Shown here: one piece after another, positions 45,033 through 63,795 of the stretch
Position numbering within the stretch: position 1 is the stretch's first letter
Layout: each line of letters starts with the position of its first letter
Source: Cognatishimia sp. WU-CL00825
GTDB lineage: Bacteria; Pseudomonadota; Alphaproteobacteria; Rhodobacterales; Rhodobacteraceae
Direction of reading: 5' to 3'
DNA: 64,000 nt
Assembly (NCBI RefSeq): GCF_040364665.1
Contig: NZ_BAABWX010000001.1
Coordinates: 1,984,001 to 2,048,000, forward strand
The notes under the pieces: generated by a model
What the model saw: the letters and a program-made list of their open reading frames with translations, nothing else
Database searches by the model: none
Told to the model about the DNA's origin: nothing
Made by a program: the position numbers and the translations under genes

Positions 45033-45072
45033 TCAGTCGTCCTCCCTCGACGAGATCGTGCAACTCGCACAA

Positions 45073-45333: not shown

Positions 45334-45537
45334 ATGAAAATTCTCTGGGATCATGACAAAGTGACAGCGTTTAAGGCCACAAGCGATCCAACACATTATG
45401 GGCTGATGCTGGGACCAAAACATCCTTCAGCCGCGACGGGAGAGCCGCTGCCTGACCACAGCACAACACAAACCAAAGGTCGCGAATTTGGTATGTTCAC
45501 CTCAAAAAACAATCAGCGTTTGATTGGTCCAACCTAA
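45334..45537 (+). CDS. Small hypothetical ORF (67 residues), possible gene remnant
   Basis: Opens MKILWDHDKVTAFKATSDPT and continues HYGLMLGPKHPSAATGE, which looks more like coded protein than random frame. I do not recognise a family. Its last codons overlap a degenerate copy of the TTGG-N5-CCAA motif (45524-45536). It could be the end of a lost gene of the sulfatase regulon, or chance. Confidence 0.3.
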   Translation: MKILWDHDKVTAFKATSDPTHYGLMLGPKHPSAATGEPLPDHSTTQTKGREFGMFTSKNNQRLIGPT

Positions 45538-45676
45538 AAGGCCTAAATCATCGCTTCAACAATGCTGTGTCTATCGCCCACCAAGTGGACATTGCGATCT
45601 CTACCCACTTCTAGCGAACAGCCGATTGCAACGAATCCGCAAAAACAAAACGAATTCCACTGCGCGTCGCATTCCT

Positions 45677-46126: not shown

Positions 46127-46281
46127 GAACGTCCTTTAGCAAAATTCGGCCATTACTTTAACAAACCACATAAACCACAAAACCCAATTCTCCAAATTAT
46201 TTGACAAGTATTGCCAAAAAAAGAACATATATACCTAACATTTGTGAGAATTAGTGTTATATAAAAATGGAGAGGAAAGCG

Positions 46282-46974
46282 ATGTTTAATTCATTTTTGG
46301 CTCCAGAAGCCATCCCATTTGCGATTGCACTTGCCGTTGTTGCCGGCCTATTCATCCTTGAAATCCTGAGTGCTCTTTTGGGAGTTACGGTCCTTGGCCT
46401 TGGTGGCGAAGGGCCGGATATTGATATCGACCCAGACTTCGATTTGAGTATGGATATTGATGTTGATGGTAACATCGATTTTGACGCACTGAGTGTGACG
46501 GGCGACATAGCTGATAGCCCCATTGCGCCATCTGGTGTCCTGACTTGGATCGGCGCGCGCGATGTGCCCTTCCTGATCTGGCTTGTGTCCTTTCTAACAA
46601 CTTTTGGTCTGATTGGTCTGATTATTCAGTCCATAACGACGGGACTCATTGGAGGTCCAATGTTCATGTGGCTGGCGGTGGCGCTTACTATTGTACCCGC
46701 TCTTAGCGTCACACGCCTCATTGCCAATTGGGTCGCTTTGATTATGCCCAAAACAGAAAGCAGCGCGATGCGCACCCGATTTTTGGGTGGTCATCGCGGC
46801 ACGATTACCCAAGGGACCGCCAGTCGCGGCAAACCCGCCGAGGCTAAGATCAAAGACCGTCACGATAACATCCACTATATCAGGGTCGAACCATTGGAAG
46901 ACGATGGCGTTTTCCGACAGGGCAGTGATGTAACGCTTATTCGCAAGCGTGGTGACAAATTCTTTGTCATCTAA
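46282..46974 (+). CDS. yqiJ: YqiJ-like membrane protein with OB-fold (NfeD-like partner)
   Basis: 230 residues from the ATG at 46282 (AGAGGAAAG upstream); the 46267 start adds only five residues. Membrane segments at about 8-35 and, after an acidic stretch rich in DIDID (about 45-75), at about 95-150. The C-terminal OB-like part has RFLGGHRGTITQGTASRGKP and GSDVTLIRKRGDKFFVI. It is followed 48 bases later by the YqiK flotillin gene, the classic pair. Such proteins organise membrane microdomains in stress; role inferred. Confidence 0.8.
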   Translation: MFNSFLAPEAIPFAIALAVVAGLFILEILSALLGVTVLGLGGEGPDIDIDPDFDLSMDIDVDGNIDFDALSVTGDIADSPIAPSGVLTWIGARDVPFLIWLVSFLTTFGLIGLIIQSITTGLIGGPMFMWLAVALTIVPALSVTRLIANWVALIMPKTESSAMRTRFLGGHRGTITQGTASRGKPAEAKIKDRHDNIHYIRVEPLEDDGVFRQGSDVTLIRKRGDKFFVI

Positions 46975-47022
46975 GCCGCCACCGGCCCCCAAGCTAATAC
47001 ACATAGTACGAAGGAGTTTCTC

Positions 47023-48696
47023 ATGGATATAATTTCAATTCTTACTTTCGCGGGTATCATTGTCGGCCTGCTTATTTTTATCGGCCTAATCATGGCGCGT
47101 CTTTATAAGCGCGCAACCCGCGAAACCAGTTTGGTAAAGACCGGGTCGGGTGGCAAAAAAGTTATCATGGATGGCGGCACTATTGTTGTGCCGTTCCTAC
47201 ATGAAATTTCGATGGTCAACATGAAGACCCTGCGCCTTGAAGTGGCCCGAGTGAACGAACAGTCGTTGATCACCAAAGACCGTATGCGTGTCGACGTTGG
47301 GGTTGAATTCTACGTCTCGGTTAACGCGACCGAAGATGGGATTTCTCGTGCGGCGCAGACCCTTGGAGATCGCACCTTTCATGTAGATCAGCTGCGCGAG
47401 ATGATTGAGGGTAAGCTGATTGACGGGCTACGTGCCGTTGCGGCCCAGATGACCATGGATGAATTGCATGAAAACCGTGCCAGCTTTGTCCAGGAGGTGC
47501 AGAATGCGATTTCTGAAGATCTGCTGAAAAACGGTCTGGAACTAGAAGCTGTTTCTTTGACCGCTTTGGATCAAACCCCATTTGAACAGCTGGATGAAAA
47601 CAATGCGTTTAATGCCGTTGGTATGCAGAAACTGGCCGCTGTAATCGCGACATCGCGTAAGGAACGCGCTGAAATTACGGCGGAAGCAGACGTATCTGTT
47701 GCGCGCTCAGAAATGGAGGCTGAAAAGCTGAAGTATCAGATTGACCGCGAACAACAAGAAGCCTCTATCACGCAAATCCGCGAAATCCAGTCGCTTCAAG
47801 CCAGTCAAGAGGCCGAGATTGCACGCAATCAAGAAGCCTCTGATCAGGCCAAAGATCAGGCCCGCATTGAACGCGAACGTGCGGTGCGTGCATCCGAGAT
47901 TGAACGCGAACGGACCATCCGTGAAGCTGAGATCGCGAAAGAGCGTGAATTGGAGGTTGCAGACCAAGAACGTCAGATCATTGTTGCGCGAAAATCTGAA
48001 GAAGAAAGCCAAGCGCGTGCATCAGCGGATAACGCCCGAGCTGAAGCTAAAAAAGCATCAGAAGCAATTGAAACTGCCCGCGCTGTTGCAGAGGCAGAGC
48101 GTCAGAAACAGATTGCATTGATTGAAGCTCAAAAAGAAGCCGAGCGTCAGGCGACGGGTATCCGTCTTGCGGCTCAGGCTGAAAAGGATGCGGCAAGTGA
48201 CCGAGCTGCGGCGAAGTTGGAGGAAGCTCAGGCTGATGCTAACGCGATTATTGTTCGCGCCGACGCAAAAAAGACCGATTTACTAGCCACAGCCGAAGGT
48301 CAGACCGCGATTGCCAACTCTGAGAATGAACTAAGCGCCGAGATCATCGCAATGAAGATTCGCCTTGCAAGTCTTGAGGCGCTGCCTGGGATTGTGGCCG
48401 AAATGGTCAAGCCCGCAGAAAAGATCGACTCGATCAAAATTCATCAAGTCACAGGCATGGGTGGCGGACAAAGCAATGGTGAGACCATGGGCAAAGGTGG
48501 AACGCCTGTAAACCAAGCACTGGACTCTGTTTTGGGTATGGCCCTGCAGATGCCCGCGATGCAGGCGCTGGGAAAAGAACTGGGGATCAGCTTGGAGAAC
48601 GGTATAGCTGGTGTCGTTGAATCGACCCTTGAAAACCCAGTCGCTTCCGATGAAACCGTCCCACCAATGAACTCCGAAGCTGAGACAATGCAATAA
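47023..48696 (+). CDS. yqiK: YqiK-like flotillin
   Basis: 557 residues. N-terminal membrane helix (about 3-27, ISILTFAGIIVGLLIFIGLI) then the SPFH domain (VKTGSGGKKVIMDGGTIVVP, VNEQSLITKDRMRVDVGVEF). From about 215 to 430 comes a very long charged coiled coil rich in Glu-Ala-Arg heptads. A C-terminal tail after TAEGQTAIANSENELSAEII completes the flotillin pattern. Scaffold of membrane microdomains, facing the cytoplasm. Ends at a good terminator. Confidence 0.92.
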   Translation: MDIISILTFAGIIVGLLIFIGLIMARLYKRATRETSLVKTGSGGKKVIMDGGTIVVPFLHEISMVNMKTLRLEVARVNEQSLITKDRMRVDVGVEFYVSVNATEDGISRAAQTLGDRTFHVDQLREMIEGKLIDGLRAVAAQMTMDELHENRASFVQEVQNAISEDLLKNGLELEAVSLTALDQTPFEQLDENNAFNAVGMQKLAAVIATSRKERAEITAEADVSVARSEMEAEKLKYQIDREQQEASITQIREIQSLQASQEAEIARNQEASDQAKDQARIERERAVRASEIERERTIREAEIAKERELEVADQERQIIVARKSEEESQARASADNARAEAKKASEAIETARAVAEAERQKQIALIEAQKEAERQATGIRLAAQAEKDAASDRAAAKLEEAQADANAIIVRADAKKTDLLATAEGQTAIANSENELSAEIIAMKIRLASLEALPGIVAEMVKPAEKIDSIKIHQVTGMGGGQSNGETMGKGGTPVNQALDSVLGMALQMPAMQALGKELGISLENGIAGVVESTLENPVASDETVPPMNSEAETMQ

Positions 48697-48704
48697 CGGC
48701 AATG

Positions 48705-48736
48705 GGGCTCCGTGTTTTGTCGGAGCCCTTTCTTTT
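48705..48736 (+). terminator. Rho-independent terminator after yqiK
   Basis: GGGCTCCG (48705-48712) and CGGAGCCC (48721-48728) form an 8-bp stem with an 8-base loop, followed by TTTCTTTT. It lies nine bases after the yqiK stop. Confidence 0.85.
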
Positions 48737-49517
48737 CCAGCGAGGCCTGCCAGCTTTGGATTTCAAAACCGATGTTTAGCTAGCGCAACTGCAATTACCA
48801 AAGAGTTGGTCCAAAAAAGATAACCCGTTTTGACGCCCCTTTAAGCCGACATTCACTGCACAGAAATCATAAGGAGCTTTGGACTCGGCACAGACTTTTG
48901 CTGCAGTATTTTTAATACCTGCCTTCGCTTTTTAAGCTGTTTTTCTTCGAAATCAACGGATGTCAGCAAACCGTTGTTTATCTGCTTTCGTTTCGCGCTA
49001 TGGAACCGTTCGATGTATTCGAGGACGACTTCTCAAGCGACTTTGTAGGATGGGTAGGTTCTGCGCCTGATCCACTGCTTCGCGCTTGAAATAGTTTGAC
49101 CCTTAGTCAACTTCCTTGACAAAAAAACGGGGGCAAAGCGTTACAGACCTAGCGGTGCCCCATTAAAAGGCAAAAATTTAGTATTGGCTGATTTAGATAA
49201 ACCCAAAAAATCATCAAAAATCGATCACTTGAAATCTGTGTAGGTAGCATTTCTTATAAGATGTGCTTTTGTCATTTAGCTGTACAAACCACCACCGAAA
49301 GGAAACAGGTTGATGAATTTGCAGTGCCCGGAATTGATATATCTCTTGCGGTATCCGAACTTCGCCTCCACAGCTTTAACGAATGTGAACAAATGGAGAT
49401 CTTTGGTTCAAATGGCGCTTCAAGGCGCATCGTGTTCCTTCGAGTTGTTTAACGACGCGCACCATTCCATTGCCACCTTGGCTACTTCGCGCCTTAAATT
49501 TGGGCTGGTAATTTCCT
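48737..49517. other. Long stretch without recognisable genes
   Basis: About 780 bases. The only open frames are short and without family resemblance. It is AT-richer than the coding regions around it and holds poly-A and poly-T runs. Possibly a scar of a lost gene or element. Confidence 0.4.
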
Positions 49518-50009
49518 ATGCATAGAATCGCGTATCGCAAGTACCGCAAGCTTTTCACTCTATTAAAGAGCCTTCAAAAAACTGCATTTTTTCTTGTGCT
49601 ATTTGCATGCAGCTCTTTTCTCACAACATTTGAACTAAACGCGGAAATTCGTGAAAGCAAACACCTCCAACGACACACATTCTTTTGGCATTACACAAAT
49701 TTTGAAAGTTACGTTGAAGCTACTTTTTTGGTCGGCACTCCCGCTCAAACTCTGCGTAGCTGGTTGGACACCCATAATTTTGAGAAACCAAGTAACGTGC
49801 CTCACTCTCTTGTTTATCTGTTGGCTAATGACAAACGCATAAAACGCCTCACGGGAGACGAGGCGAATACAATTTGGAAAATGTCCAGCAAACGCATTTG
49901 GTCGATATGTGGCCCAAGCTGGCATGAAGTTTTCTGGCGCGAAGATGAGCAATCAAATATCTCGGATTTGGCCACCTACCAGGTGCTTTGCGTTTCGAAC
50001 CTACCCTAG
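49518..50009 (+). CDS. Hypothetical protein with N-terminal hydrophobic segment
   Basis: 163 residues. After a basic start (MHRIAYRKYRKLFTLLKSLQ) comes the hydrophobic segment FFLVLFACSSFLTTFELNA, consistent with a signal peptide or anchor. The rest is rich in Trp and His (HLQRHTFFWHYTNFESYVEA) and has no family I recognise. No strong ribosome binding site. It stands alone between a gene-poor stretch and tRNA-Phe, so it may be a strain-specific gene or not expressed. Confidence 0.4.
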   Translation: MHRIAYRKYRKLFTLLKSLQKTAFFLVLFACSSFLTTFELNAEIRESKHLQRHTFFWHYTNFESYVEATFLVGTPAQTLRSWLDTHNFEKPSNVPHSLVYLLANDKRIKRLTGDEANTIWKMSSKRIWSICGPSWHEVFWREDEQSNISDLATYQVLCVSNLP

Positions 50010-50315
50010 TTTTTATTGAGCATTTTTGGGAAAGTTGTATTTCCTGAAACTTTAATGGGGTACTCGTCCTCATCGAAGCCCCTTGCCTTCGCCAAACTCG
50101 TTTGTTTGGTGCTTACTCGACGATTTCACCCGTCAAGATAAGCCGAGCGCGACCAAAGCGGGTCATTTCACGCTTGAAGATGTGAAATTTGTCGCCCAAA
50201 ATCGTGGGTTTCTCGGCCACCTGAACCTCACAACAAAAAATGTGTAATTTTGTGTTAGGCCGAATCCGAGCAATATCCACAAGCTGACTAACTCATTGCT
50301 TTTACTTGGTAAAAA
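50010..50315. other. Intergenic stretch before tRNA-Phe
   Basis: About 300 bases. A 56-codon minus-strand frame (50113-50280, GTG start) reads fairly protein-like but has no homology I know. No other feature seen. Confidence 0.35.
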
Positions 50316-50390
50316 TGGTGCCCAGGGGCGGAATCGAACCACCGACACGAGGATTTTCAATCCACTGCTCTACCCCTGAGCTACCCGGGC
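50316..50390 (-). tRNA. tRNA-Phe (GAA)
   Basis: A 75-base cloverleaf including an encoded CCA end. Acceptor stem GCCCGGG/CCTGGGC, D arm GCTC/GAGC, anticodon loop TTGAAAA (anticodon GAA), T arm GGTGG-TTCGATT-CCGCC. The anticodon stem GTGGA/TCCTC has one T-T mismatch (positions 28-42). It follows the yacG gene on the same strand, its usual place in this housekeeping block. Confidence 0.95.
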
Positions 50391-50469
50391 ACGGGAGAGT
50401 GATTTCTCACTCGGGTTGCGGCGTTTTATGTCACTGCTGGGGTGGTGTCCAGAGCCAAATTGAAAAAAG

Positions 50470-50652
50470 TCAGTGAAGTTGATTGTCTTTATTTCCGGGT
50501 TGCAAAAGACCTGCTTCTTGGCCCTCTTCTGGCTCAGTTGGATAAGTATAACCGCCACTTAGCCACTTTCCCAGGTCGATGTCAGCGCAACGTTTGGAGC
50601 AGAAAGGCCGATAGGTTTCAGAGGTCGTCTTTTTGCAAATTGGGCAGCTCAT
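50470..50652 (-). CDS. yacG: DNA gyrase inhibitor YacG
   Basis: 60 residues, the normal length. The four zinc cysteines are at residues 3, 6, 18 and 22 (CPIC and CSKRC), followed by [15 protein letters not shown], the family signature. YacG binds zinc and restrains gyrase. Its ATG overlaps the stop of the ribonuclease G/E-like gene (ATGA). Short C-terminal tail. Confidence 0.93.
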
Positions 50653-51671
50653 GACAGCAGGGCAGCCACAGGCAAACGTTCACGTTTGCGTTGCAATTCA
50701 AAATGTCCAAGAGGCGTCCATCCAGCCATAACTGTTTCAACACCATCAGCGCGCAATGCGGTCCGAATTGCCGTTTCAAACGCACGACGATCCTTTTTTG
50801 CCATAGGCGCAAGGTCAAGTGTGATCTGCCCACCTATTCCACGAATGCGGCACTGGCGCGGCAAATCTTTCGCAGCCGCCAAATTTGCGCGCAATGTTGC
50901 CGCCGGTGATGTGTCGCTGCCAGTATTCACATCAACGGCAACAAGCGCTCGGGTAGGCTCGACGAACATATATGCCCCGGCTCCTAGCGCCACTTTGGAA
51001 AACTGCAATTCATCTAGCGCATCCAGAACACCAAGGTCTTCAAATCCCGCTTCATGGGTGACAACTTCGGCAGGATCGGTCCATTCGCGCCAAGCCACCA
51101 AATGCGGCCCATCGCCTTCCAACAGCATTTCTGCTGCACCCTCTGCATCCGCCAAAATAGCTTCCGCAAGATCTTGCATCGCTGCGATGTCTTCTGCGAT
51201 CTGTTCAGGCTCGGCTGTTGCGCAACTGGAACGCAGTATCAATCCCATCCCATTTTCACGCATAACGTCATGGGCTATGCCCTTCAATGTATCGCGTGTG
51301 TCTTCATCCCGTATGCTCCGACTAACGTTCAAGCCAGGCGCTTCTGGGGTCACAATTGCAAAGCGGCTTTTGAACAACACTCGTGCGGTGACCGGAATCG
51401 CCTTGCCATCTTCTGCGTATCCGGTGACTTGAACCAACAGGGTTTGCCCCGGTGACAGACCTTTGACCTGACGCAAAAACGCGCTGCCATCCGGTGTCTG
51501 CAAAAACATGCCGCCCTGACCCTTGATCGGTCGGTCTGCGACCGCGCGATAAATGGTGCCTGGACGTGGCGCATCGCCATCAATCAAGAAATCAGACAGT
51601 TTTCCGTCAACCATTAGCGCCGCAGCCTCACGGTCGTTCACTTGGTCTAGGATGATTTGGCGACCCTTCAT
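50649..51671 (-). CDS. Ribonuclease E/G-family protein (short form)
   Basis: 340 residues, shorter than RNase G (about 490). The S1-like N-terminal part is reduced (about 35-100), and the catalytic region has [15 protein letters not shown] and VAVDVNTGS; in [21 protein letters not shown] the first metal aspartate is seen, then [14 protein letters not shown] with the second. This short form is usual in the maf-rng-yacG cluster of Rhodobacterales. It would cut or trim RNA. Overlaps maf and yacG by four bases. Confidence 0.88.
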
Positions 51672-52246
51672 GGGAAATCCTTATACATTGGAAAACCTGC
51701 GGCGCTTAGCAGGGCAGCGGTTTCAGCAAGTGGCAAGCCAACGATGCCAGTAAATGATCCGCTAATCCAAGGAATAAAAGCACCAGCGGGACCCTGAATT
51801 GCATAAGCACCAGCTTTGCCTTGCCAGTCGTTAGTCGCAAGATAGCTGTTCAATTCTTGGTCCGAAAGACGCTTCATCTTGGCGAAGCTGACCACGTCTT
51901 TGTGCCACATCTGGTCGCCCTTACGCAGGGCCACAGATGTAATAATGCTGTGGCGACGTCCACCCAGGGCAATTAGAAATTCGGCAGCCTGGGCAACGTC
52001 CTGGGGTTTTCCCAGAATACGCCGACCTAAAGCCACGGTTGTATCAGCGCACAAAACTATATCAGTGTGATCTGCCCGTACTGCGGCAACTTTTTCGCGG
52101 GCAATACGACCGCAATATGCGCGCGGCGCTTCACCCCTACGGGGTGTCTCGTCAATGTCGGGGGGGCGAATATCATCCGCAACCACACCGATCTGAGCAA
52201 GCAATTCCTTGCGGCGCGGGCTTCCAGAACCAAGAATGAGCTTCAT
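51668..52246 (-). CDS. maf: Maf-family nucleotide pyrophosphatase
   Basis: 192 residues from the ATG at 52246. The N-terminal signature is [35 protein letters not shown] holds the catalytic region and [20 protein letters not shown] the C-terminal one. Maf proteins hydrolyse modified or non-canonical nucleoside triphosphates. Sits between infA and the RNase gene with a 4-base overlap. Confidence 0.93.
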
Positions 52247-52285
52247 ATCTTCGGTCCCGCACCTAAGGCCGCGCAACAGGGCGCG

Positions 52286-52504
52286 TTATTTGAAACGATA
52301 GTTGATCCGGCCTTTGGTCAGATCATATGGGGTCATTTCAACTTGGACTTTGTCACCAGCAAGAACACGGATGCGGTTTTTACGCATCTTGCCTGCCGTA
52401 TGTGCAATAATTTCATGGCCGTTTTCCAGCTCGACCCGAAACGTCGCATTCGGCAGGAGTTCCTTTACGACACCGGGGAATTCGAGCAGTTCTTCCTTGG
52501 CCAT
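52286..52504 (-). CDS. infA: Translation initiation factor IF-1
   Basis: 72 residues, a complete IF-1: [20 protein letters not shown], then [20 protein letters not shown] and a C-terminus KGRINYRFK. It binds the 30S A site during initiation. In the usual order between the LMW phosphatase and maf, but here separated from the phosphatase by a TPR-sulfotransferase gene. Confidence 0.97.
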
Positions 52505-52740
52505 GGTCTCTCCTATAGCGTAGCACTCGCCATTTGCGAGCGGCCTTTAAATGGGCGCAAATTCTCTTTTTTACAAGGGTTATTCGAACCGCATCTCCGA
52601 ATTATGGCAAGTTTTGATTGAATACCGGCCTCAATCGGCTGGGAAGCAGCAAAAAATGACAAAATTCCATAGGGTTTGGCAGAGAAACCTTTAGAATTCT
52701 GCTTCACCATAGATCTTTTCATTATTAAGAATCTTTTGCA

Positions 52741-54525
52741 TTACAGCTCAACGTGATCGGTTTTGGAGGCATTTTCACCCTCGTTTAACTTATCCATCCA
52801 CTCCCCCGCCAAAGATTTATATTGCAGCCAAGCTTTTGAACTGCCTTGGTAAATCTTTTTCCGAACTTGAGACTGGGAGGCCGTTGTCACCGGTTGGTTG
52901 CCTTTTTCAGGGCTAAGGCATGCGGCATGCCAAGACAGGCCAACTTGTACAAGTAAGTTCCTTATTGTGTTCTCTGGCCCGCGAACAAGTTGTTCATAGT
53001 CCAGAGAATAGATTCTGGACGGAAATCGGGTTTGCCAAAACGCCATTAGTTGCTGATAGGCCTTATAATAGGACACGAGATCCTCTGGATCATAAGAAAA
53101 CCCATTGCCCATCGAGCTATAAAGCGTGCGAAAGTTGGACCAACAGACGGCATTTGCGTCACGTCGCATGTGAATGACGCACGCATCAGGTATTGCCATA
53201 AGAATATGACCGATTAACCGAAAATTGGTCGGCATCTTATCGGTGAAAAACGCGGTTTGTCTGGCACAAGGCGGTAAGCGCCGCAAATAATCCTGTCGCA
53301 ATGCGGCAGCCTGATCCACATCTGGGGCCTCTTGGTTTGGCAGGCATGTTACCACGCTTTGTAACAATGCGCTGGTTTCGCCACACGCCATCACATCGGG
53401 ATGGCGCGCAAGTATGGCTTCGGCCAATGTTGTGCCGGAACGTGGCATCCCGACGATGAATATGGGTCTTGGCCCCGCCGCGCGGCGAGCTTGCGCAAGG
53501 TTTGGCGTTGGCACCGCAAATGCCGTTTTGAGTTTCTCAAATAGCGCGATGTCGCGACCAACATCATAGGCCAAGTATTGTTTTTGCAGCGCATTTCCTT
53601 CGCAATAATGCGCATATGCACGATCATAATTTGCGTTGTCTTCACACAGTTTTGCCATGGCGAAATGCAAATATTTGGCATCACGTTGACTTTGCGGAAG
53701 ATCAAGAGCGCCTGTTATTCGCTCTGAAATTTCAGGCTCGGTGCACATATCGTGCCGCAATGCAAAATTATAAAAATGATTGCCTTGCGGCTTGCCCAAC
53801 ACAATGGCATCTCGGTGGGAATTATTGGCCTGATCAATGCGTCCCAATGCGCCCAACGCAGCAGCTTTCAGGCCGTAAAATTGCTCTGACGCGGGGTCTG
53901 ACTTTAGGCCTTGCTCTGCTATCTCGAGCGCTTTTTCAGCCTGGCCAGAATTATAGCAACATCGGCCAAGAGCCAGTTGAAAACTCTGGTTATTTTGCGA
54001 AAGTTTAAGTGCAATTTCATAGCTCTTAATAGCTTCCTCGAACAAGCCAGCTAGTTCAAATGCCTCTGCAAGTGTGCCAGCATAAATCGGGTTTTTTGGA
54101 TCCCTAGCAAGCGCGGCTCCAAGTTGCGTCAGCGCTTCGCGCAACCGATTTGACCGCATCAACGCCGTGCCAAGCCGAAATGTAAGGTCTGCATCAGAAG
54201 GCCCAAGTTTCTGTGCCGTGACAAAACACGTTGCCGCCAAGGCGTTCTGGCCAACTGCCAAATACAAATTGCCCAGATCACGGTGCAGCATGGAAATACT
54301 AGCGTCCATTGCAATGCCACGCTTGTATAGAACAATGGCCTGTCGTAGCCGGCCCAATCCCGTGCTGGCCGCCCCCAAAAAACCTTGAATTACGGCCTCT
54401 TCTGGAAAGCGTCTTTGCGCGCGCGTCGCCATCTTATGCAGCTGACGAAATTGTCCCTTGTTCAGCAGGCGCTGCAACACATGAAGCTCAGAGGCCTTTT
54501 GGGTCTCCTTAACGATGGGCTGCAT
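52741..54525 (-). CDS. TPR-repeat sulfotransferase-family protein
   Basis: 594 residues from the ATG at 54525, with AAGAGG upstream; GTG at 54546 is an alternative. Residues about 20-290 are TPR units (ALGRCCYNSGQAEKALEIAE is one). From about 340 a sulfotransferase domain follows: the PAPS 5'-phosphosulfate loop is PIFIVGMPRSGTTLAEAILA, and HMRRDANAVCWSNF gives the 3'-phosphate site. It would sulfate a protein or polysaccharide. It interrupts the infA/phosphatase neighbourhood of the housekeeping block. Confidence 0.85.
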   Translation of the reverse strand: MQPIVKETQKASELHVLQRLLNKGQFRQLHKMATRAQRRFPEEAVIQGFLGAASTGLGRLRQAIVLYKRGIAMDASISMLHRDLGNLYLAVGQNALAATCFVTAQKLGPSDADLTFRLGTALMRSNRLREALTQLGAALARDPKNPIYAGTLAEAFELAGLFEEAIKSYEIALKLSQNNQSFQLALGRCCYNSGQAEKALEIAEQGLKSDPASEQFYGLKAAALGALGRIDQANNSHRDAIVLGKPQGNHFYNFALRHDMCTEPEISERITGALDLPQSQRDAKYLHFAMAKLCEDNANYDRAYAHYCEGNALQKQYLAYDVGRDIALFEKLKTAFAVPTPNLAQARRAAGPRPIFIVGMPRSGTTLAEAILARHPDVMACGETSALLQSVVTCLPNQEAPDVDQAAALRQDYLRRLPPCARQTAFFTDKMPTNFRLIGHILMAIPDACVIHMRRDANAVCWSNFRTLYSSMGNGFSYDPEDLVSYYKAYQQLMAFWQTRFPSRIYSLDYEQLVRGPENTIRNLLVQVGLSWHAACLSPEKGNQPVTTASQSQVRKKIYQGSSKAWLQYKSLAGEWMDKLNEGENASKTDHVEL

Positions 54526-54598
54526 TTTACAAATCCTCTTAGCCACTTGTCAGACTCACGGTCCAACAAAAATGCGAAGATTTGGTTAGCCTGCGCGC

Positions 54599-55054
54599 CT
54601 ATTGACTTGCGTCACCCCAATTATGTTTCAAATGCGAAATAATCTCGTCTCTGGCCAAACGATAGGCCACCAGCTTTGCCTCTCGGCTTTCCCCCTTGCC
54701 TGTCGGATCGGGTATCGGCCAAAACTGAACATCCGTATGAAAGAACTTTGTCAGTTCCATTGCCTTGGCATGGCTCGCGGGTGTCAGCGCAACAATCAAA
54801 TCAAAACTAGAGAGCTGATCGCCCCATTGTTCCATTTCTTCAAACGACCGAGACCGATGGCGCGATAGTTCCACATCAATCTCCTGGCACACAGAAATGG
54901 CGAATCCATCGATTTCCAGATCGTTTTTCAACCCGGCTGATTGCACATAGCTATCAGTGCCAAACAGTTTTTTCATCACCCCTTCGGCCATCGGAGAGCG
55001 CACTGCGTTGTGATCGCAGCAAAACAACACGGACTGCGGAAAATCAGCGGCCAT
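54599..55054 (-). CDS. Low-molecular-weight protein-tyrosine-phosphatase-family protein
   Basis: 151 residues from the ATG at 55054. The P-loop CX5R is CDHNAVR (residues 13-19) in VLFCCDHNAVRSPMAEG. The general-acid Asp of LMW phosphatases is in PIPDPTGKGE. The related ArsC arsenate reductases share this fold. In this cluster it follows UPF0262, two bases after that stop. Confidence 0.88.
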   Translation of the reverse strand: MAADFPQSVLFCCDHNAVRSPMAEGVMKKLFGTDSYVQSAGLKNDLEIDGFAISVCQEIDVELSRHRSRSFEEMEQWGDQLSSFDLIVALTPASHAKAMELTKFFHTDVQFWPIPDPTGKGESREAKLVAYRLARDEIISHLKHNWGDASQ

Positions 55055-55056
55055 TG

Positions 55057-55536
55057 TCACGCTCCGAAATGCAGCACACAAATCAGCGTAAAAAGGCGAC
55101 GAGCTGTGTCGTTGTCAATCTCGGCCTTCCCTTCCAAACGCTCTATCAAAATGCGCGCACCCTCATTGTGAATGCCACGTCGAGCCATATCGATGGTTTC
55201 GATCTGGCTTGGAGGCATGTTTTTCACTGCATCAAAATAGCTTTCGCAAATCTGCCAATAATCTTTGACAACTTGACGAAACGGCGACAATGACAGGTGG
55301 AATTCCGCCGCCTTTTCTTCGCTCTCAGTGGTCAGGTCAAATACCAATCGCTTGTCGCGGATCGCAAGTTCGAGCTGAAACGGGCCCGTTGGATCTGGTC
55401 GATCCGTACGCTTTGGCAAGGCAAACACGTTCTTTTCGACCAAGTCAAACATCGCTACACGGCGCTCTTGCTCGATTTCGGGCGTAGGCGGCGGCAGATT
55501 GCGATCGTCTATTTCAATACGGCTGATACGGCTCAT
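55057..55536 (-). CDS. UPF0262 family protein
   Basis: 159 residues from the ATG at 55536 (AAGAG upstream). MSRISRIEIDDRNLPPPTPE, then RRVAMFDLVEKNVFALP and DMARRGIHNEGARIL are the marks of this alphaproteobacterial family of unknown function. Normal place between hisD and the LMW phosphatase; here an SDR gene on the other strand separates it from hisD. Confidence 0.92.
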   Translation of the reverse strand: MSRISRIEIDDRNLPPPTPEIEQERRVAMFDLVEKNVFALPKRTDRPDPTGPFQLELAIRDKRLVFDLTTESEEKAAEFHLSLSPFRQVVKDYWQICESYFDAVKNMPPSQIETIDMARRGIHNEGARILIERLEGKAEIDNDTARRLFTLICVLHFGA

Positions 55537-55678
55537 CTCTAAACTCTTACCTGTCCTGTTGCCAAATGGGTAACCCAAGTGCTGCAATACAGCAATGCGG
55601 CAGAGCGACATAAGTATTAATACCGTTGCACTTGGCAACATTCGTAAAATCGCAGAGAACAAGAAAAAAGGGGCGATT

Positions 55679-56437
55679 ATGACAGATTACGGTGTATTCT
55701 CTTTGGCCGGTCAGCGCGCGCTGATCACTGGCAGTAGTGCAGGTCTGGGCTTTGAAATTGCAAAATTACTCGCGAGCGCAGGGGCAGAAGTTTGGGTCAA
55801 TGGTAGGCAGAAAACTGACGTACACCAAGCCGTTGAATATATTGGAGTAAATGCACGTTCCGCGATTTTTGACGTGGCAGACCACAGTGCGGTAGTGGCT
55901 CAGTTTAATCAGTTTGAGGACCTTGGAGGCCTCGACATCTTAGTTAACAACGTCGGCCTAAGAGATAGGCGCAATTTCCCCGAATTTACCCATGCTGATG
56001 TCACACGTCTTTTGGATGTAGACCTTGTCGCGCCGTTCTTCCTGGCACAATCTGCCGCAAGATTAATGGAAAAAAACGGCTATGGGCGTATCATAAACAT
56101 TTCATCTCTTGCGGGGTTAGTCGCCCAACCCGGAGACGCGGCCTATACCACAGCAAAATCTGGTCTCATTGGCATGACCCGAGCCCTATCTGCTGAGCTG
56201 GGCCCCAAAGGCATCAATGTAAATGCGGTTGCACCTGGATTTTTCAGAACATCGCCGAACCAAGAAGCCAGCAAAGACCCGGCCTTGGCGCAACGATTGA
56301 AGTCAAATTCAGCACTTGGTCGTTGGGGCGAACCGGCGGAGCTAGCACCAACAGTTTTATTGTTGGCATCAAAGGCTGCATCCTACCTTACAGGGCAGGT
56401 CATTGCGGTGGACGGTGGGTATTCGACGCATTATTGA
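55679..56437 (+). CDS. SDR oxidoreductase, gluconate-5-dehydrogenase-like
   Basis: 252 residues from the ATG at 55679; the frame from 55595 has no homology before that. TGSSAGLGFEIAKLLASAG is the cofactor motif, NNVGLRDRRNF the NNxG segment and YTTAKSGLIGMTRAL the catalytic part. The wording is closest to gluconate 5-dehydrogenases. It is inserted on the plus strand between UPF0262 and hisD, unlike its minus-strand surroundings. A palindrome (TGGGTAACCCA, 55567-55577) and paired TGTTGCCAA/TTGGCAACA (55557-55565, 55632-55640) lie in its promoter region. Confidence 0.85.
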   Translation: MTDYGVFSLAGQRALITGSSAGLGFEIAKLLASAGAEVWVNGRQKTDVHQAVEYIGVNARSAIFDVADHSAVVAQFNQFEDLGGLDILVNNVGLRDRRNFPEFTHADVTRLLDVDLVAPFFLAQSAARLMEKNGYGRIINISSLAGLVAQPGDAAYTTAKSGLIGMTRALSAELGPKGINVNAVAPGFFRTSPNQEASKDPALAQRLKSNSALGRWGEPAELAPTVLLLASKAASYLTGQVIAVDGGYSTHY

Positions 56438-56594
56438 CCTTTTCTGGGCGGCGATAACTCTTCGTTAGGAATTCAGCGCAATATTGAGCACGCGGAACAG
56501 GCGGGGACGCCGATGGCCGTGTCAAAGAAGCCTCGCAGCCTTGAGGGGATCCGGTTGCGATGGGAAGGGCCCGGTCTTCTTTGACAAAAAATAT

Positions 56595-57899
56595 CTATTC
56601 TTTGTTCAACGCGTCCAGTCGCGCAAGGACAGACAAGCCATGTGCCTCTAGGCTTTCGCTCTCAGCAAGTCTTGCAGCTGCAGGACCAATGGCGCGCAAA
56701 CTGTCCGGGGCCATCTTGGACAGGGTAGTGCGTTTGACAAAATCCATCACTGAAAGCCCAGAGCTAAACCGCGCGGATCTGGCCGTCGGCAGCACGTGAT
56801 TGGGACCGCCGACATAATCCCCTATGGCTTCAGGAGTATACTGGCCGATAAAAATCGCCCCCGCGTGAATGGTTTTTTCGCTTAGCGATTCTGCATCTGC
56901 CACACAAAGCTCTAGGTGCTCGGGCGCAATGCGATTGGACAATTCAACAGCCGCATCAAGATTTGGCACAGTGATGATTGCCCCGAAATCACGCCAGCTT
57001 GGGCCAGCAATTGCGCGGCGTTCTAGTGTCTCCAAGCGTTTCTCAACGGCGTTGGCCACCTCTTGCCCAAATTGCGCATCGTCAGTAATCAATATCGACT
57101 GAGCGCTTTCGTCATGCTCGGCTTGGCTGAGCAAATCCAACGCAATCCAATCTGGATTGTTATCTTTGTCAGCAATCACCAAAATTTCTGATGGGCCGGC
57201 GATCATATCGATCCCCACTTTGCCAAACACACGGCGTTTGGCCGCCGCAACAAAAGCATTGCCCGGACCGGTGATCTTATCCACAGGCGGAATGGTTTCC
57301 GTGCCATAAGCTAGGGCCGCAATAGCCTGAGCACCGCCGATTCGATAGATTTCATCAACCCCTGCCAGGCGGGCCGCCAACAACACCAACGGATTGGCCA
57401 CGCCATCCGGTGTGGGCACCACAATCGCCAAGCGTGCAACGCCTGCCACCTTTGCAGGGATAGCATTCATTAATACCGAAGAAGGATAACTTGCCAAACC
57501 ACCAGGAACATAAAGCCCCGCAGCAGAGACCGGCGTCCAACGCCACCCAAGTGTCGCGCCGGTTTGGTCGGTCCAGCTTTGATCTTCGGGCAGTTGTCTA
57601 AGGTGATAGGCGCGGATACGGTCAGCCGCCAATTCCAGCGCAGCGCGATCTGCTGCATTCACCTGTGCACAAAAGGCCTCTACTTCAGCTTCGGAAAAGC
57701 GTAGAGACTGCGGCGTCAATTTAAGCCGGTCGAATTTAGCCGTAAGATCAATGACCGCTTGATCACCATGTGCCCGCACCTGCGCGATGATATCAGCAAC
57801 TATGGCATCGACATCGGGGCTGTCTTCCCGTTTTGCACCCAAAAGTGCGGTGAACTTGGTTTCAAAATCTGCGTCCGAAGCATTTAGAAACTGGGGCAT
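56595..57899 (-). CDS. hisD: Histidinol dehydrogenase
   Basis: 434 residues from the ATG at 57899, preceded by AAGGAGA; the ATG eight codons upstream is less well placed. Family text is clear: [20 protein letters not shown], then [39 protein letters not shown] and [12 protein letters not shown]. Oxidises L-histidinol to histidine in two NAD-dependent steps; zinc enzyme. Part of the murA-DUF2948-hisD-UPF0262 order. Confidence 0.96.
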
Positions 57900-57943
57900 G
57901 CGGCTCTCCTTTGATGTGCTCATAGCGCTGTGCGCTCAGAGCC

Positions 57944-58417
57944 TCAAGGAATAAGCTGCTTTTTCATGGGCTGCCCCTGAGTCGAATAACACGCGACTTC
58001 TGGGCCATCTGAGTGCCAGCCCCTTTTCCGATAAAAGCCCAGCGCCGTATGTGAACTAACCAACTGGGCCTGTTGATTGCCAAAAGATGCGATTTCTTGC
58101 TCCATTGCGTCCAGCAATGCACTGCTATGCCCCGCGCCGCGAAACGCTGGGTGTACATAGAGCAAAAGGATTCTCCCTGTCGTCAGGAACCCTCCGACTG
58201 CAGCAATCTGGCCATCGCATTCGCTCACGCGCAACTGCGTGCCTGCGTTGATCCAGCGCACGATGTCTTCCGGCGATTTTTCAGCCGTCCAACTTGCTAT
58301 GGCTTCAGGGGCATCCTTGTGATCATCAAAACAAAGCTGGGTAATCGAACGGATCAATACGCGGCTGATGCTTTGCGCGTCTGCTTCAACCGCCTGCCTG
58401 ATCATCGACAGGCTCAA
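57944..58417 (-). CDS. GNAT-family acetyltransferase
   Basis: 157 residues; TTG start at 58417 overlapping the DUF2948 stop (TTGA), or ATG at 58405. The GNAT acetyl-CoA loop is LLLYVHPAFRGAGHSSALLD (R-x-x-G-x-G-like), with LVSSHTALGFYRKRGW near the end. Probable N-acetyltransferase of an amine or peptide; substrate unknown. Lies between DUF2948 and hisD. Confidence 0.85.
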   Translation of the reverse strand: MSLSMIRQAVEADAQSISRVLIRSITQLCFDDHKDAPEAIASWTAEKSPEDIVRWINAGTQLRVSECDGQIAAVGGFLTTGRILLLYVHPAFRGAGHSSALLDAMEQEIASFGNQQAQLVSSHTALGFYRKRGWHSDGPEVACYSTQGQPMKKQLIP

Positions 58418-58893
58418 GTCTCGTGTGTCGGCATTTGCTTTGAGGGTGCCAAATAGGGGCGTGTCACATCTTTAAGCGTCGCCTCCAGCGCCTCTACGGA
58501 CAATTTTAGAACGCCGTCCCCGGCCAATGTAAGCAATATATGCCCTGCCCCATCTTTGAGCGGTTCATAGGTCAAAGAAAGCAGCGAAAGGATTGTTTCT
58601 TTGTCACTTCGATCTACGCCCTGACTGGAAACGCTTAGCACATTTTCGACCAAAAGTACCGATTGTACCCGCTCGACGGCGCGCCCCGTCTGTTTGGCCG
58701 TCGGGGCGTCTTCCCAACGAAATCGGTTAAGCAAGATGGCAAAGCGGCGCTCTCTGGCACGCCAGGTCATTTCCGTGACCGGAAACACCGCATCTTGAGC
58801 TAAAGCCGAAATCACTTGCAGATCTTCGGCATCCAACGCGCCCAAGTTTAGCGGCGTTTCCTGCCCATCTTCAAATCGTGCGTCTTGGGTCAT
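58414..58893 (-). CDS. DUF2948 family protein
   Basis: 159 residues. [20 protein letters not shown] and [20 protein letters not shown] are the family text; RFRWEDA follows. Found directly after murA in many Rhodobacterales; function unknown. Four-base overlap with murA. Confidence 0.9.
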
Positions 58894-60158
58894 ATGCCAT
58901 CTACCCTTTTTATCACCGCGCCAACATTCCCAAGTTTTTCTTCTAAGCGCTCATAGCCGCGGTCCAGATGATAAACGCGGTTCACGATGGTTTCGCCTTC
59001 GGCCGCCAGACCCGCCAAAATCAAAGAAACAGAAGCGCGTAAATCAGTTGCCATTACGGGCGCACCTTTCAGGCGCTCAACGCCGTGTACAGTTGCTGTA
59101 CCGCCGGACACTTCGATGCTGGCCCCCATACGGATTAGCTCGGGGGCATGCATAAAGCGGTTCTCAAAGATCTTTTCTTCCAGAACCGACGTGCCCTCGG
59201 CGGTACACATCAGCGCCATCATCTGGGCTTGCAAATCAGTCGGAAAGCCCGGGAAAGGTTCAGTCACCACATCCACGGCTTTGACCCGACCGTTTTTGCA
59301 CACAACTTTCAGACCAGCCTTGGTTTCCTCGACAGAAATTCCAGCCGCATCCAGTTTTTCGCAAAACGCGCCAACCAGTTCGATGCGCCCACCCAACAGC
59401 TCAACTTCACCACCCGCGATGGCTGGGGCAAGCATATAGGTGCCTAGTTCGATGCGATCTGTAACAACCGGATGAGTCGCGCCACTCAGGCGATCTACCC
59501 CTTGGATAACAATTGACGGGCTACCGTCGCCTTCAATTTGCGCGCCCATAGAACGTAAACAGGTTGCAAGGTCTTGGATTTCAGGTTCACGGGCGGCATT
59601 GTTGATCACCGTTGTGCCTTTGGCCAATGTTGCCGCCATCATGATATTCTCTGTTGCCCCAACAGAGGCAAAAGCCAATGTCATTTCCGCGCCCTTCAGG
59701 CCCTTTGGGGCTTTGGCGTGCAAATAACCGTCTTTCAATTCGATCTGAGCACCCAGCTTTTCAAGTCCATAGGTGTGCAGATCCATCGGCCGCGCCCCAA
59801 TCGCGCAGCCTCCGGGCAAAGACACAACCGCATGACCAAGACGCGCAATCATCGGGCCAAGCACCAGATTAGAGGCCCGCATTTTGCGCACAATGTCATA
59901 ATCAGCGATGTGATTATCAATGTTGTGGCTGGACATCGCGATGACTTTGCCGTCCTGCAGCGAGGACACTTCAGCTCCCAATGACTGCAATAGCTGGGTC
60001 ATGGTTTTGATATCAGACAGCCTAGGTGCATTGGTCAACGTCAGCGGTTCTTCGCTGAGCAACGTTGCCGGCATGAGGGTCAGACAAGCATTTTTTGCAC
60101 CTGCAATGGGAATTTGGCCATTCAGCGGACCATTTCCTTTAACAATAATTGAATCCAT
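58890..60158 (-). CDS. murA: UDP-N-acetylglucosamine 1-carboxyvinyltransferase
   Basis: 422 residues, full length. [20 protein letters not shown] opens the first of two inside-out barrel domains; the catalytic/fosfomycin-target Cys118 is in [23 protein letters not shown] and [17 protein letters not shown] complete the pattern. First committed step of peptidoglycan synthesis: enolpyruvyl transfer to UDP-GlcNAc. Head of the housekeeping gene block, preceded by a 54-residue small gene. Confidence 0.97.
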
Positions 60159-60163
60159 CTGCC

Positions 60164-60328
60164 CTAATCCTTGTCCTGAGCGCCTGTCTCTTTATCACCC
60201 GCAGGTTCGGTGCGCGCACGGGCTTGCGCCTTGCGACGTCCCATATTTGCCTTCAAAGCTGCTTTCAATCGGTCCTCGCGCGTTTGCGCAGGCTTTGACC
60301 GATTTGTTGGTGTTTTTTTATTTTCCAT
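60164..60328 (-). CDS. Small basic protein upstream of murA
   Basis: 54 residues from the ATG at 60328: [20 protein letters not shown], then [18 protein letters not shown] and an acidic end. Lys/Arg-rich, with the [18 protein letters not shown] stretch I associate with a short conserved ORF before murA in Rhodobacterales. No known function. Ends six bases before murA, so it is probably co-transcribed. Confidence 0.65.
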
Positions 60329-60443
60329 GCGCTTTCATTACATGAGCCGAAAAAAACATTCTAGATCCCCTTGCACAGTTAGAAATTTGAGGCTAATCAC
60401 CGCGCCACGGTTGACGAGACAATCTGTCTTTATGCGACGGTAT

Positions 60444-60518
60444 GCTGTGGTAGCTCAGTGGCAGAGCACACCCTTGGTAAGGGTGAGGTCGAGAGTTCAA
60501 TCCTCTCTCACAGCACCA
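60444..60518 (+). tRNA. tRNA-Thr (GGT)
   Basis: 75 bases including encoded CCA. Acceptor stem GCTGTGG/TCACAGC, D arm GCTC/GAGC, anticodon stem CACCC/GGGTG with loop TTGGTAA (anticodon GGT), T arm GAGAG-TTCAATC-CTCTC. Its 3' end abuts the remnant of a large serine recombinase, which suggests use as an integration site. Confidence 0.96.
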
Positions 60519-60951
60519 TTCACTTTTACCCTATGCTGAAACACCGCTAAAGCCTGGAATGGTAAAGCTATTCCTGGTGTTCTAACTCCTGAATTTCGAT
60601 GATAGGTAAATCGACCCGTAAATGCCAATCTCAGCAGCATTCTACGCAGTGTGATATTGCCACTTTCCCATACTTTATAAGGACTTGCGAGGAAGCAGAG
60701 TGAGAGTTCTAACGTTTCTTCTAGCCTACCCTTTTTCGGCGTTTGATACGTCAATGAATCTTGCAAAAAACCTTGGATTTTTCTAATTTCGCTATTTCTT
60801 CGTATGCACCGACCGCTGTCATACTGGAGGCATCCATAATGCGCCCCACCAATTGTTCGATTTGCTTATCGATTTCGGCGATCTTGCCTTTCACATCCTT
60901 AGACGCGCCCTTGGCCTGATCAATTCGGGCCTGCCAAGCGTCTTTGAACAT
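60497..60951 (-). pseudogene. Remnant of a large serine recombinase (C-terminal part)
   Basis: Two frames joined at a T6 run (minus strand; 60765-60770 on the plus strand). The first, from 60951, reads MFKDAWQARIDQAKGASKDV and KIAEIDKQIEQLVGRIMDAS, the coiled-coil linker of large serine recombinases. The second continues DSLTYQTPKKGRLEETLELS, LCFLASPYKVWESG and RTPGIALPFQAL, the usual C-terminal region. One extra T would join them (KVFLQDSL). The catalytic and DNA-binding domains are missing; a stop stands just upstream of the ATG at 60951. The 3' end runs into the 3' end of tRNA-Thr. Confidence 0.75.
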
Positions 60952-61396
60952 CGCCTTTAGCCCTCAGTTCCTACATGCAATGATGATCATCGAAGCTGTC
61001 TTGGATATCGAACTGGAAGCGCGACAGTCACCATATCAACGATTTGTTCCCGTTGACGAAATTCTGGTACGGGCACCTGAGACCACGCGAGAAGCGGCAA
61101 ACCCTTTGGCAATACCAGTTCGACTTCATGAGAACGATACATATCTCATACCAGATGCCTTGTACGGCATTGAGCACGATGAAGATGGAGAAAAGGGATA
61201 CCGTTTCTGGGCGATAGAGTGCGAGCGCACGAGTCCTGAACACCGTTCCAATCAAAGGTTATCCAGCACGGGAAAAAAGAAAGAACTCTATACCAGATTG
61301 CTGCGAGACCGGAGTTACGGAGCGCACTGGGGGATTCCCAACCTGAAAGTGCAATTTGTTAATCACAAAGGCACTTCAGATTACTCTTCTGTATAA
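60944..61396 (+). pseudogene. Fragment of a replication-relaxation-like protein
   Basis: 150 codons. From about 60980 the text is coding-like: IIEAVLDIELEARQSPYQRF, VPVDEILVRAPETTREAANP, then PDALYGIEHDEDGEKGYRFW and YGAHWGIPNLKVQFV. This resembles the C-terminal half of the replication-relaxation family of mobile-element proteins (PDALF-G-F-ALE pattern), seen also on plasmids and islands. The N-terminal wing is missing. Tentative family call; probably a leftover of the same element as the recombinase. Confidence 0.5.
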
Positions 61397-61711
61397 AGCT
61401 AATTTTTTTTAATTTCTCATACCTGAACATAGAATATCGCCCCTTATGATCACGATTTATGAGCCTAAAAAGAGCCTAAAAACAAACAAAGCCTTAGCTG
61501 ATTCCAGCTAAGGCTTTGTTTTGTGGAACGTCACGAAGAGCGGCCATTTATCGACGCTGCGGCTAAGGTCTCATCTGAGCCCAAAGTCTCAAATGCTGCA
61601 CAACGCTTGAATGCCTGGATTTTACGCAAGCGGAGTATGTTACGAACGGTGATCTGAGGCTTTCTTTACCAATTGTGAATAGAACCTGTCTCGCACGCAC
61701 TCGGAGGTTCC
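61397..61711. other. Intergenic stretch with strong terminator before the MuF gene
   Basis: 315 bases between the replication-protein fragment and the MuF gene. Apart from the hairpin at 61484-61521 it holds a 45-codon frame (61523-61657) of unknown nature. Confidence 0.4.
61484..61521. terminator. Strong bidirectional terminator
   Basis: AACAAAGCCTTAGCTG (61485-61500) pairs perfectly with CAGCTAAGGCTTTGTT (61505-61520) around a four-base loop, extended by one A-T pair; T-rich on the right and A-rich on the left. It isolates the MuF/pentapeptide pair from upstream transcription. Confidence 0.85.
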
Positions 61712-63400
61712 ATGCAACACGGTTTCAGCGATTTTCTCCGGTATGGCGGTGACAGCCAGTACAGAATGGCGCAACGACATGGTCGCCTGGTTGGCTACCC
61801 CTCGGGGTTCTCACTCAAATCCATTTTTCCGAACTATTCCGCTTTGCGAGCCGATTTCAGTGAACGTCTCGACCAGGTGACTTCTGAAAACACTCGGATG
61901 CTCTTGAACGTGCTGACGCCGCCTGACACCGTGCCGACTGTTTCGGCGTCCGATTTGCGAGATGTATCCGATGCAAAGGCAGAAGCGCTTAGCGCTTGGG
62001 ACGCGCGACTTGAGAGTATATTCAGCGAGTATCAAAACCACCCGCAACGGCTTAGACCGCTTCGAGCGTCCATGGAAGAACGCCTTTTGCGTGCCTTTGC
62101 TGGGCTAATCAACCAACTCCGACAAGAAGACCTCGGGATTGAGCAATATATCTGGCGCTCGCAAGATGATGCCAAGGTGCGTGACAGCCATGCGGCCTAT
62201 GACGACCGAGTGTTCCGGTGGGATAATCCACCTGAAGGCGGGCACCCCGGCGAAGCACATAATTGTCGTTGTTTTGCCGAGCCGATTTTTCTTGCCGTGT
62301 CGAGCAACGTTGTGCTCGCTGATTTCGCGCCAACGGCTGACAGCTTTCCGGGCGGCAACAATACTGTTCGACGCCTGGGTAATGGCTTGCTAGCACGCTC
62401 GCCTGCGGGATTGGCAGCATACGCGGCCCTTGAAGCAAGCAACCGGCTTCAAGAATTCACACGCGCTGCGAACGAGAGACGTGTACGTGATGCGGCAGAA
62501 ATCTTGGGCGCTGATTTGGGCACCGTTGAGGGCATCCTGGCTGCCCAAGCCTACGCTATGGCGAAAGAACTTGCTGAGAATGGTTTCCTGTCTGACGCAC
62601 CAGAACGCGGCGACCGGGCGAGAGTAATTGCGGAAGCCATCGGCCTTTATGAAATGTATCAGCCAGGGCTGTTTACGTTGCCAAACGAGAATGCCGCTGG
62701 GGCAGTAGAGATTGCACGCCAACTGGCTGCACAAGCTTTGGCGGCTTTGGAGGCAAACCAGCTTACACCTCTGGACGGTGAACTGGCAAAGGGTTGGGTG
62801 GAGGTTTTCCCTGAATTGACGGAAGATGAGCGTCGATTGGGCCAACTGCCGGGTTTCACACCCGAACGGCATGAGCAGTGGCTTGAAACCTATCCGATTG
62901 AAGATTTAGGTTTGCCGAACAACACGGGCTCACCCATACCCGGCGATCCGACCGACAATATCATATCAACGCCGATCCCAGAGGAGGCGGGGCCGAACAT
63001 TATGGCCTCTGAGCGCACGCAGGAAGAGTTGGACGCCTTGGCAAGCGCCCCTGGCAGAGGAGGCGTTATTAATGGAAAAACCGAACAAGAACGCAAGATA
63101 GGTCTTGGTGCCGAGGAAGCTGGTCTGGTTGCAGGCCCCATTGTCCGCGATCCCACTGGTGCAGCTGAGTTTATTGATGCAGATGGTCAGGCCTGGGATG
63201 TGAAGGGCTTTCGCAGCGATTTCCCCGCCAGTACCGGTGGCTTTGACATTGATAAGGACATCGCAAAGGTTGAGCGGGAGTTGGCGGCGGGTCACAATGT
63301 GATCATAGATACAGAAAACCTGAGCGAAGCAGACCTTGAAGCTCTTAGGAACGAAATTGAACGCCGAGGAATCTCAGACAGGGTGGTATACTGGCCATGA
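61712..63400 (+). CDS. MuF-domain protein with C-terminal toxin-like domain (polymorphic toxin)
   Basis: 562 residues from the ATG at 61712 (GGAGG upstream). Residues about 144-190 match the phage Mu gpF/SPP1 gp7 head-morphogenesis domain: YIWRSQDDAKVRDSHAAYDD, FRWDNPPEGGHPG, then AHNCRCFAEP. A helical, Ala-rich linker spans about 220-430. The last 113 residues (about 450-562) form a separate domain after INGKTEQERKIGLGAEEAG: AAEFIDADGQAWDVKGF, whose Glu and D-x-K fit a PD-(D/E)xK-type nuclease, and NVIIDTENLSEADL ... RVVYWP as in contact-dependent toxin tips. MuF-toxin fusions are known phage-borne polymorphic toxins. Its stop overlaps the pentapeptide gene start (ATGA). No other phage structural genes are nearby. 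Confidence 0.75.
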   Translation: MQHGFSDFLRYGGDSQYRMAQRHGRLVGYPSGFSLKSIFPNYSALRADFSERLDQVTSENTRMLLNVLTPPDTVPTVSASDLRDVSDAKAEALSAWDARLESIFSEYQNHPQRLRPLRASMEERLLRAFAGLINQLRQEDLGIEQYIWRSQDDAKVRDSHAAYDDRVFRWDNPPEGGHPGEAHNCRCFAEPIFLAVSSNVVLADFAPTADSFPGGNNTVRRLGNGLLARSPAGLAAYAALEASNRLQEFTRAANERRVRDAAEILGADLGTVEGILAAQAYAMAKELAENGFLSDAPERGDRARVIAEAIGLYEMYQPGLFTLPNENAAGAVEIARQLAAQALAALEANQLTPLDGELAKGWVEVFPELTEDERRLGQLPGFTPERHEQWLETYPIEDLGLPNNTGSPIPGDPTDNIISTPIPEEAGPNIMASERTQEELDALASAPGRGGVINGKTEQERKIGLGAEEAGLVAGPIVRDPTGAAEFIDADGQAWDVKGFRSDFPASTGGFDIDKDIAKVERELAAGHNVIIDTENLSEADLEALRNEIERRGISDRVVYWP

Positions 63401-63795
63401 CAAAGCTTGATCTTCAACAGCGCGTAGATGCGTTTAGCAATGGGCAGGGTCGGAACCTTGACCATGGAACTAACCTTGAAGAGCTTGGATTGGACTTCAG
63501 AGATGTATTTCTTGATGATCGCAACCTGGCTGGTGCCGTGATACCTGGTTCGAACTTTTCCGGCGTGGTTTTGGAGAACGTTGATTTTTATGGCGCAAAC
63601 TTGGGTGGTGCAAATTTCTCTGGGGCGGTCCTTAAGAATGTCGACTTCACGAAAGCGAATCTCGACAACGCCAACTTCACAAACGCTACAGTTGTTGGAG
63701 GTAGCTGGTTCAGAGCAACTTGCATAGATGCGCAGGTTGCAGGGCTTACCTTTTCCGGGACCAATCTGGAACGAACATTCCCTCAGCTTTCGTAG
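63397..63795 (+). CDS. Pentapeptide-repeat protein, candidate immunity protein
   Basis: 132 residues; ATG at 63397 overlapping the MuF-toxin stop. From about residue 32 there are some 18 pentapeptide units with central Leu/Phe (DFRDV, NLAGA, NFSGV, DFYGA, NLGGA, NFSGA, DFTKA, NLDNA, NFTNA), which build a right-handed quadrilateral beta-helix. The preceding residues (TKLDLQQRVDAFSNGQG) are a short helical cap. Such proteins can mimic DNA (MfpA, Qnr protect gyrase). Position and translational coupling point to neutralising the upstream toxin. That function is inference. Confidence 0.85.
   Translation: MTKLDLQQRVDAFSNGQGRNLDHGTNLEELGLDFRDVFLDDRNLAGAVIPGSNFSGVVLENVDFYGANLGGANFSGAVLKNVDFTKANLDNANFTNATVVGGSWFRATCIDAQVAGLTFSGTNLERTFPQLS

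Follow-up and report, generated by a model that had tools for sequence, protein, structure and literature searches.

A putative MuF-borne nuclease toxin paired with a pentapeptide-repeat immunity candidate in Cognatishimia sp. WU-CL00825

Near the end of the window analyzed here, a stretch of 64,000 nucleotides from the alphaproteobacterium Cognatishimia sp. WU-CL00825 (NZ_BAABWX010000001.1, positions 1,984,001 to 2,048,000 of the forward strand), a MuF protein gene is directly followed by a gene for a pentapeptide-repeat protein, a candidate toxin-immunity pair (Table 1). The two reading frames share an ATGA, just as an earlier note on this DNA had described. The N-terminal part of the larger protein contains the MuF domain, with matches to PF04233 (E 9.7e-12; score 46.1 bits, cut-off 29.6), to TIGR01641 of NCBIfam, barely over its cut-off (40 against 39.65 bits), and to a head morphogenesis family of PHROGs.

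Table 1. Coordinates in the window of the gene pair, its parts and the adjacent tRNA gene
Feature	Position	Strand	Basis
MuF-type polymorphic toxin gene, 562 residues	61712..63400	+	ATG start
GGAGG, probable ribosome-binding site of the toxin gene	61703..61707	+	read directly
MuF trunk, residues 1-432	61712..63007	+	common to proteins with other C-terminal domains
Phage_Mu_F domain PF04233, residues 122-188	62075..62275	+	profile match
Pre-toxin linker, residues 433-452	63008..63067	+	common to Bacillota carriers
Predicted toxin domain, residues 453-562, PD-(D/E)xK-like fold	63068..63397	+	alignment, predicted structure
ATGA, overlap of toxin stop and partner start	63397..63400	+	read directly
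Pentapeptide-repeat protein, 132 residues, candidate immunity protein	63397..63795	+	PF00805, predicted structure
tRNA-Thr (ggt), probable island attachment site by inference	60444..60518	+	DNA similarity to congeners

The trunk of the MuF protein is found with exchangeable C-termini, the behavior of a MuF polymorphic toxin that the earlier note had assumed. A search with residues 1-430 scored 8000 candidates and yielded 344 proteins at E<=1e-5, and the C-terminus types of the 120 matches listed were sorted by regular expressions. Among these matches, the C-termini diverge after a common '..STPIPEExGPNIV' of the trunk: the type of the window occurs in 10 of the 120, a CdiA_C end in 30, an EndoU end in 15, a '..RPLE' end in 46 plus three missed by the expression, two further types in 4 and 7, and a PF12106 end, perhaps akin to the '..RPLE' type, in one, while 4 proteins are truncated. 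Besides that of the window, at least five C-terminal domains, CdiA_C and EndoU among them, thus occur on this trunk. One protein of the CdiA_C type (P0046) has a trunk 92% identical to that of the window and matches PDB entry 4g6v at E 3.1e-34. Whole or in part, the trunk is present in 21 of 295 genomes of the same family, counting that of the window (E<=1e-20). At three other loci (L048, L051 and L053), the MuF trunks end near residue 210 and continue into a different C-terminus (GGHTIAQHVGKSDDFLL), which may resemble an RNase A-like CdiA end.

The last 130 residues of the protein matched no family in Pfam, NCBIfam, PHROGs or PADLOC, and no credible PDB chain by sequence. The earlier note had described a nuclease-like module of 113 residues with an E...D-x-K pattern; the pattern, present in the AAEFIDADGQAWDVK stretch of the module, holds, and the length needs to be corrected to about 130 residues, because a linker motif shared with Bacillota (RTxEELxxLAxDPAH) begins near residue 433. 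In a 19-row alignment, in which the residue number of the window toxin equals the position in the first row plus 432, every row has E460, E468, D480, W495, D496 and K498, and at least 90% of rows keep E486. The AlphaFold model of the domain is confident (predicted local distance difference test, 96), and its nearest folds are PD-(D/E)xK endonucleases; the model has the core fold of that superfamily, with acidic residues (E460 and E486) followed by a D-x-K (D496-x-K498) on a strand. E460, E486, D496 and K498 may therefore be regarded as the candidate active site, and the nuclease-like character proposed earlier gains support from both fold and conservation. No profile relation to CdiA_C was detected (hhalign probability below 1%), the comparison being confined to that family. 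Taken at the sequence level, the domain appears to represent an unclassified nuclease-toxin family, absent from the family libraries searched.

The downstream protein matches PF00805 with an E-value of 1.2e-19, and its predicted structure comprises an N-terminal helix (residues 3-15) and a beta-helix (about residues 28-124), so that both the repeats and the fold of the pentapeptide-repeat superfamily are present. The NCBIfam cut-offs for membership of Qnr (24.7 against the required 240 bits) and MfpA (19.7 against 360 bits) are missed, and the C-terminal dimerization helix characteristic of Qnr and MfpA does not appear in the model, whose tail is short and of low confidence. In the 3.62-Mb genome of the window, PF00805 detects a single gene, with two overlapping matches that both lie in this protein; its position behind the toxin gene is therefore not a matter of chance.

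At every locus read, the C-terminal domain kept its pairing with this partner. The toxin domain was found in Sulfitobacter sp. DFL-14 (L002, 77% identity), Lysinibacillus fusiformis (L003) and Butyrivibrio (L004 and L005); L007 was the only other match in 394 genomes of the same family, and a Paenibacillus polymyxa plasmid (L008) the only one in 72,556 plasmid records. The family to which the L005 genome belongs added L017, L018 and L019 (four of 250 genomes with a match, that of L005 among them), and the phylum of the L003 genome added L056 (two of 398 genomes, again counting its own). In 398 genomes of the phylum of the window, the domain occurs in the window only, and it is absent from all eight congeners searched (0/8). 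At all 11 loci read, the window included, a pentapeptide gene above the Pfam cut-off of PF00805 lies directly downstream. Discounting L019, where only the last 27 residues of the toxin are left, the broken copy at L056 and one of the near-identical L004 and L005, these loci amount to about eight independent intact pairs. In Bacillota the domain recurs on unrelated carriers; as a whole, its carriers comprise MuF proteins, a phage-baseplate-V-like protein, PT-HINT proteins (10 of the 40 protein-database homologs P0006-P0045, by precomputed Pfam annotation), unnamed proteins and orphan cassettes (L018). Over eight pairs, toxin distances correlate with partner distances (r 0.88, p 0.0007); without two near copies, r is 0.54, a value reached in 26 of 720 permutations.

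Some of these loci have features of their own. In the annotation of the Paenibacillus plasmid (L008, 5318-6192), the genes after the pair encode a short GH-E nuclease, an ankyrin protein and DUF2185, in an arrangement that resembles a toxin-cassette array. In Sulfitobacter sp. DFL-14 (L002, 3618-5312) and in genome G353 (L007, 1501-3208), the reading frame is interrupted in the MuF trunk but stays open in the toxin domain and in the pentapeptide gene.

The gene in the same slot behind sibling trunks was scanned at six loci (L046, L047, L049, L050, L051 and L052), and a canonical immunity family was recognized at three of them. WHH/colicin-DNase ends are followed by an SMI1_KNR4 (SUKH) gene at L049 and L052, and a CDI_toxin_EC869_like end by a CdiI gene at L050, in each case with a 4-base overlap of toxin and immunity genes as in the window. 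With the window, these trunks have just the first 190-210 residues in common (50, 71 and 55% identity). No recognized family was found in the next gene at L046 (EndoU-type end), L047 or L051. Because the pentapeptide gene stays with the toxin domain and not with the trunk, and because SUKH or CdiI occupies its slot at three siblings, it qualifies as the immunity candidate that the earlier note had taken it for; the ATGA overlap and its presence at every locus read agree with the downstream position of such genes. With strong support from these comparisons, it is very probably the antidote of the toxin.

Based on the exchange of ends on the trunk, the kept partner and the predicted fold, the pair can be read as a MuF nuclease toxin with a beta-helix immunity protein, and we consider it highly likely that the two genes form a polymorphic toxin-immunity module with MuF as its carrier. 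According to this model, the MuF trunk, with its phage head-morphogenesis domain, would place the protein in a phage-type particle, the PD-(D/E)xK module would cut DNA or RNA in the recipient cell, and the pentapeptide-repeat protein would protect the producing cell by binding to the nuclease domain and blocking it. For a MuF protein encoded away from head genes, a helper particle would be the likeliest delivery route. Toxicity, substrate, neutralization by binding and delivery are steps that we infer.

A special case of this module is that the pentapeptide protein acts as a nucleic-acid mimic in the substrate cleft of the nuclease, which we regard as doubtful. The net charge of the window partner is -6, but that of the two nearest partners is almost zero (-1 and -2), and the toxin domain, at -12, is itself acidic; moreover, an N-terminal helix combined with no C-terminal dimer helix is unlike Qnr and MfpA as described in a review. 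DNA mimicry by the partner is unsupported. Still more doubtful is the wider proposal that a beta-helix serves, by cleft mimicry, as dedicated immunity to a PD-(D/E)xK toxin, used with several delivery systems in both Alphaproteobacteria and Bacillota, and residing here on a MuF trunk that has become separated from its phage and needs a helper particle.

Other roles for the two genes fare less well. That both are non-functional debris of a decayed prophage is very improbable: the absence of recognized head genes nearby, the short open reading frame fragments upstream of the toxin and the interrupted trunk frames of L002 and L007 would fit such decay, but the copy in the window has its full length, a trunk 92% identical to that of an equally long homolog (P0006), every invariant residue and, apart from D14 in the linker, every nearly invariant one. 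It is likewise very improbable that the pentapeptide protein shields a cellular target such as gyrase instead of binding the toxin, because the toxin domain, as modeled, resembles a metal-dependent nuclease and not a gyrase poison, partner distances track toxin distances, partner length varies between lineages, and the Qnr and MfpA cut-offs given above are missed by far. Least probable is a role as adaptor or chaperone in loading the toxin, although pentapeptide proteins are described in type VI secretion clusters, where they figure as effectors or accessory proteins. A loader would be expected to follow the carrier, but the partner follows the C-terminal domain over unrelated carriers, and the same slot holds immunity proteins at three siblings.

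The proposal that the pair stands outside a prophage was borne out by a break in synteny at a tRNA gene and by the lack of recognizable phage structural genes nearby. The match to all eight congeners (8/8) extends from murA to about the 3' end of tRNA-Thr and then ceases; in one of them (L061), even the tRNA is shifted by about 2 kb. Nothing matching the MuF, Fic, TniQ-like or kinase genes follows within the 11-13 kb retrieved from the congeners. The natural reading of this sequence comparison is an island that begins at tRNA-Thr; no far border was found. Besides the toxin-partner pair, the island holds a Fic gene and two genes with scores below their cut-offs, one TniQ-like (25.2 bits, cut-off 27) and one DUF4365-like. 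The Fic/DOC gene (L013, 12029-12715, minus strand), located 29-715 bases beyond the window end and convergent with the pair, matches the PADLOC candidate defense family PDC-S04, and it is followed by the TniQ-like gene and the DUF4365-like gene (a weak PDC-M02A match); the three are perhaps a small defense or mobile cargo cluster. Between tRNA-Thr and the toxin (60754-61393) lie two short open reading frames, one per strand, with no Pfam match over the cut-off, which by eye are perhaps the ends of recombinase or mobilization genes.

No head, packaging or tail PHROG was matched at E<=1e-5 by 23 neighboring open reading frames (44064-61393 plus 8 kb past the window), where 13 of the 18 PHROGs matched have no description, and one portal gene lies 0.9 Mb from the pair. 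Near sibling trunks, 59 open reading frames at seven loci match integrases (eight members) and two minor-tail families and include no head or packaging family, with 7 of the 22 matched families undescribed; a tape-measure gene is found about 2 kb from L045. Judging from these gene neighborhoods, MuF toxin genes seem often to stand apart from head genes.

According to Jamet et al. 2017 (PMC5576092), MuF toxins occur exclusively in temperate phages or prophages and are much commoner in Firmicutes. The window pair shares with them the MuF domain, the swappable toxin domain and the small downstream gene of presumed immunity function, but it lies in an alphaproteobacterium without recognizable phage neighbors, and hence not in the reported location. 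The catalog of Zhang et al. 2012 (PMC3482391) has the same toxin-immunity cassette logic and restriction-endonuclease-fold toxin clades. The word 'pentapeptide' is absent from the former and from the first 300,000 of the 357,715 characters of the latter. CDI_toxin_EC869_like (PF21111) and CdiA_C (PF18451, PDB 4g6v) both occur on related MuF trunks, but the partner of the former at L050 is CdiI and not a pentapeptide protein; both are PD-(D/E)xK-type nucleases. McbG and AlbG shield gyrase, and together with Qnr and MfpA they share the pentapeptide beta-helix with the window partner; all four are gyrase-linked, whereas the window partner accompanies a predicted nuclease and has an N-terminal helix. 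The closest precedent is the pentapeptide immunity protein encoded in the microcin B17 operon, as given in a review. Pentapeptide immunity to a polymorphic or contact-dependent nuclease toxin was not found in searches of the open-access literature, which does not prove its absence from print. The polymorphic toxin kind is already known, the toxin family lies outside the searched libraries, and the immunity fold is unusual.

Overall, the finding suggests a family of nuclease toxins that is as yet unclassified and has a clear candidate for its antidote, and the pentapeptide-repeat superfamily gains a testable role in toxin immunity beyond the gyrase-poison cases. With MuF toxin genes apart from prophages, the delivery agent becomes a concrete question.
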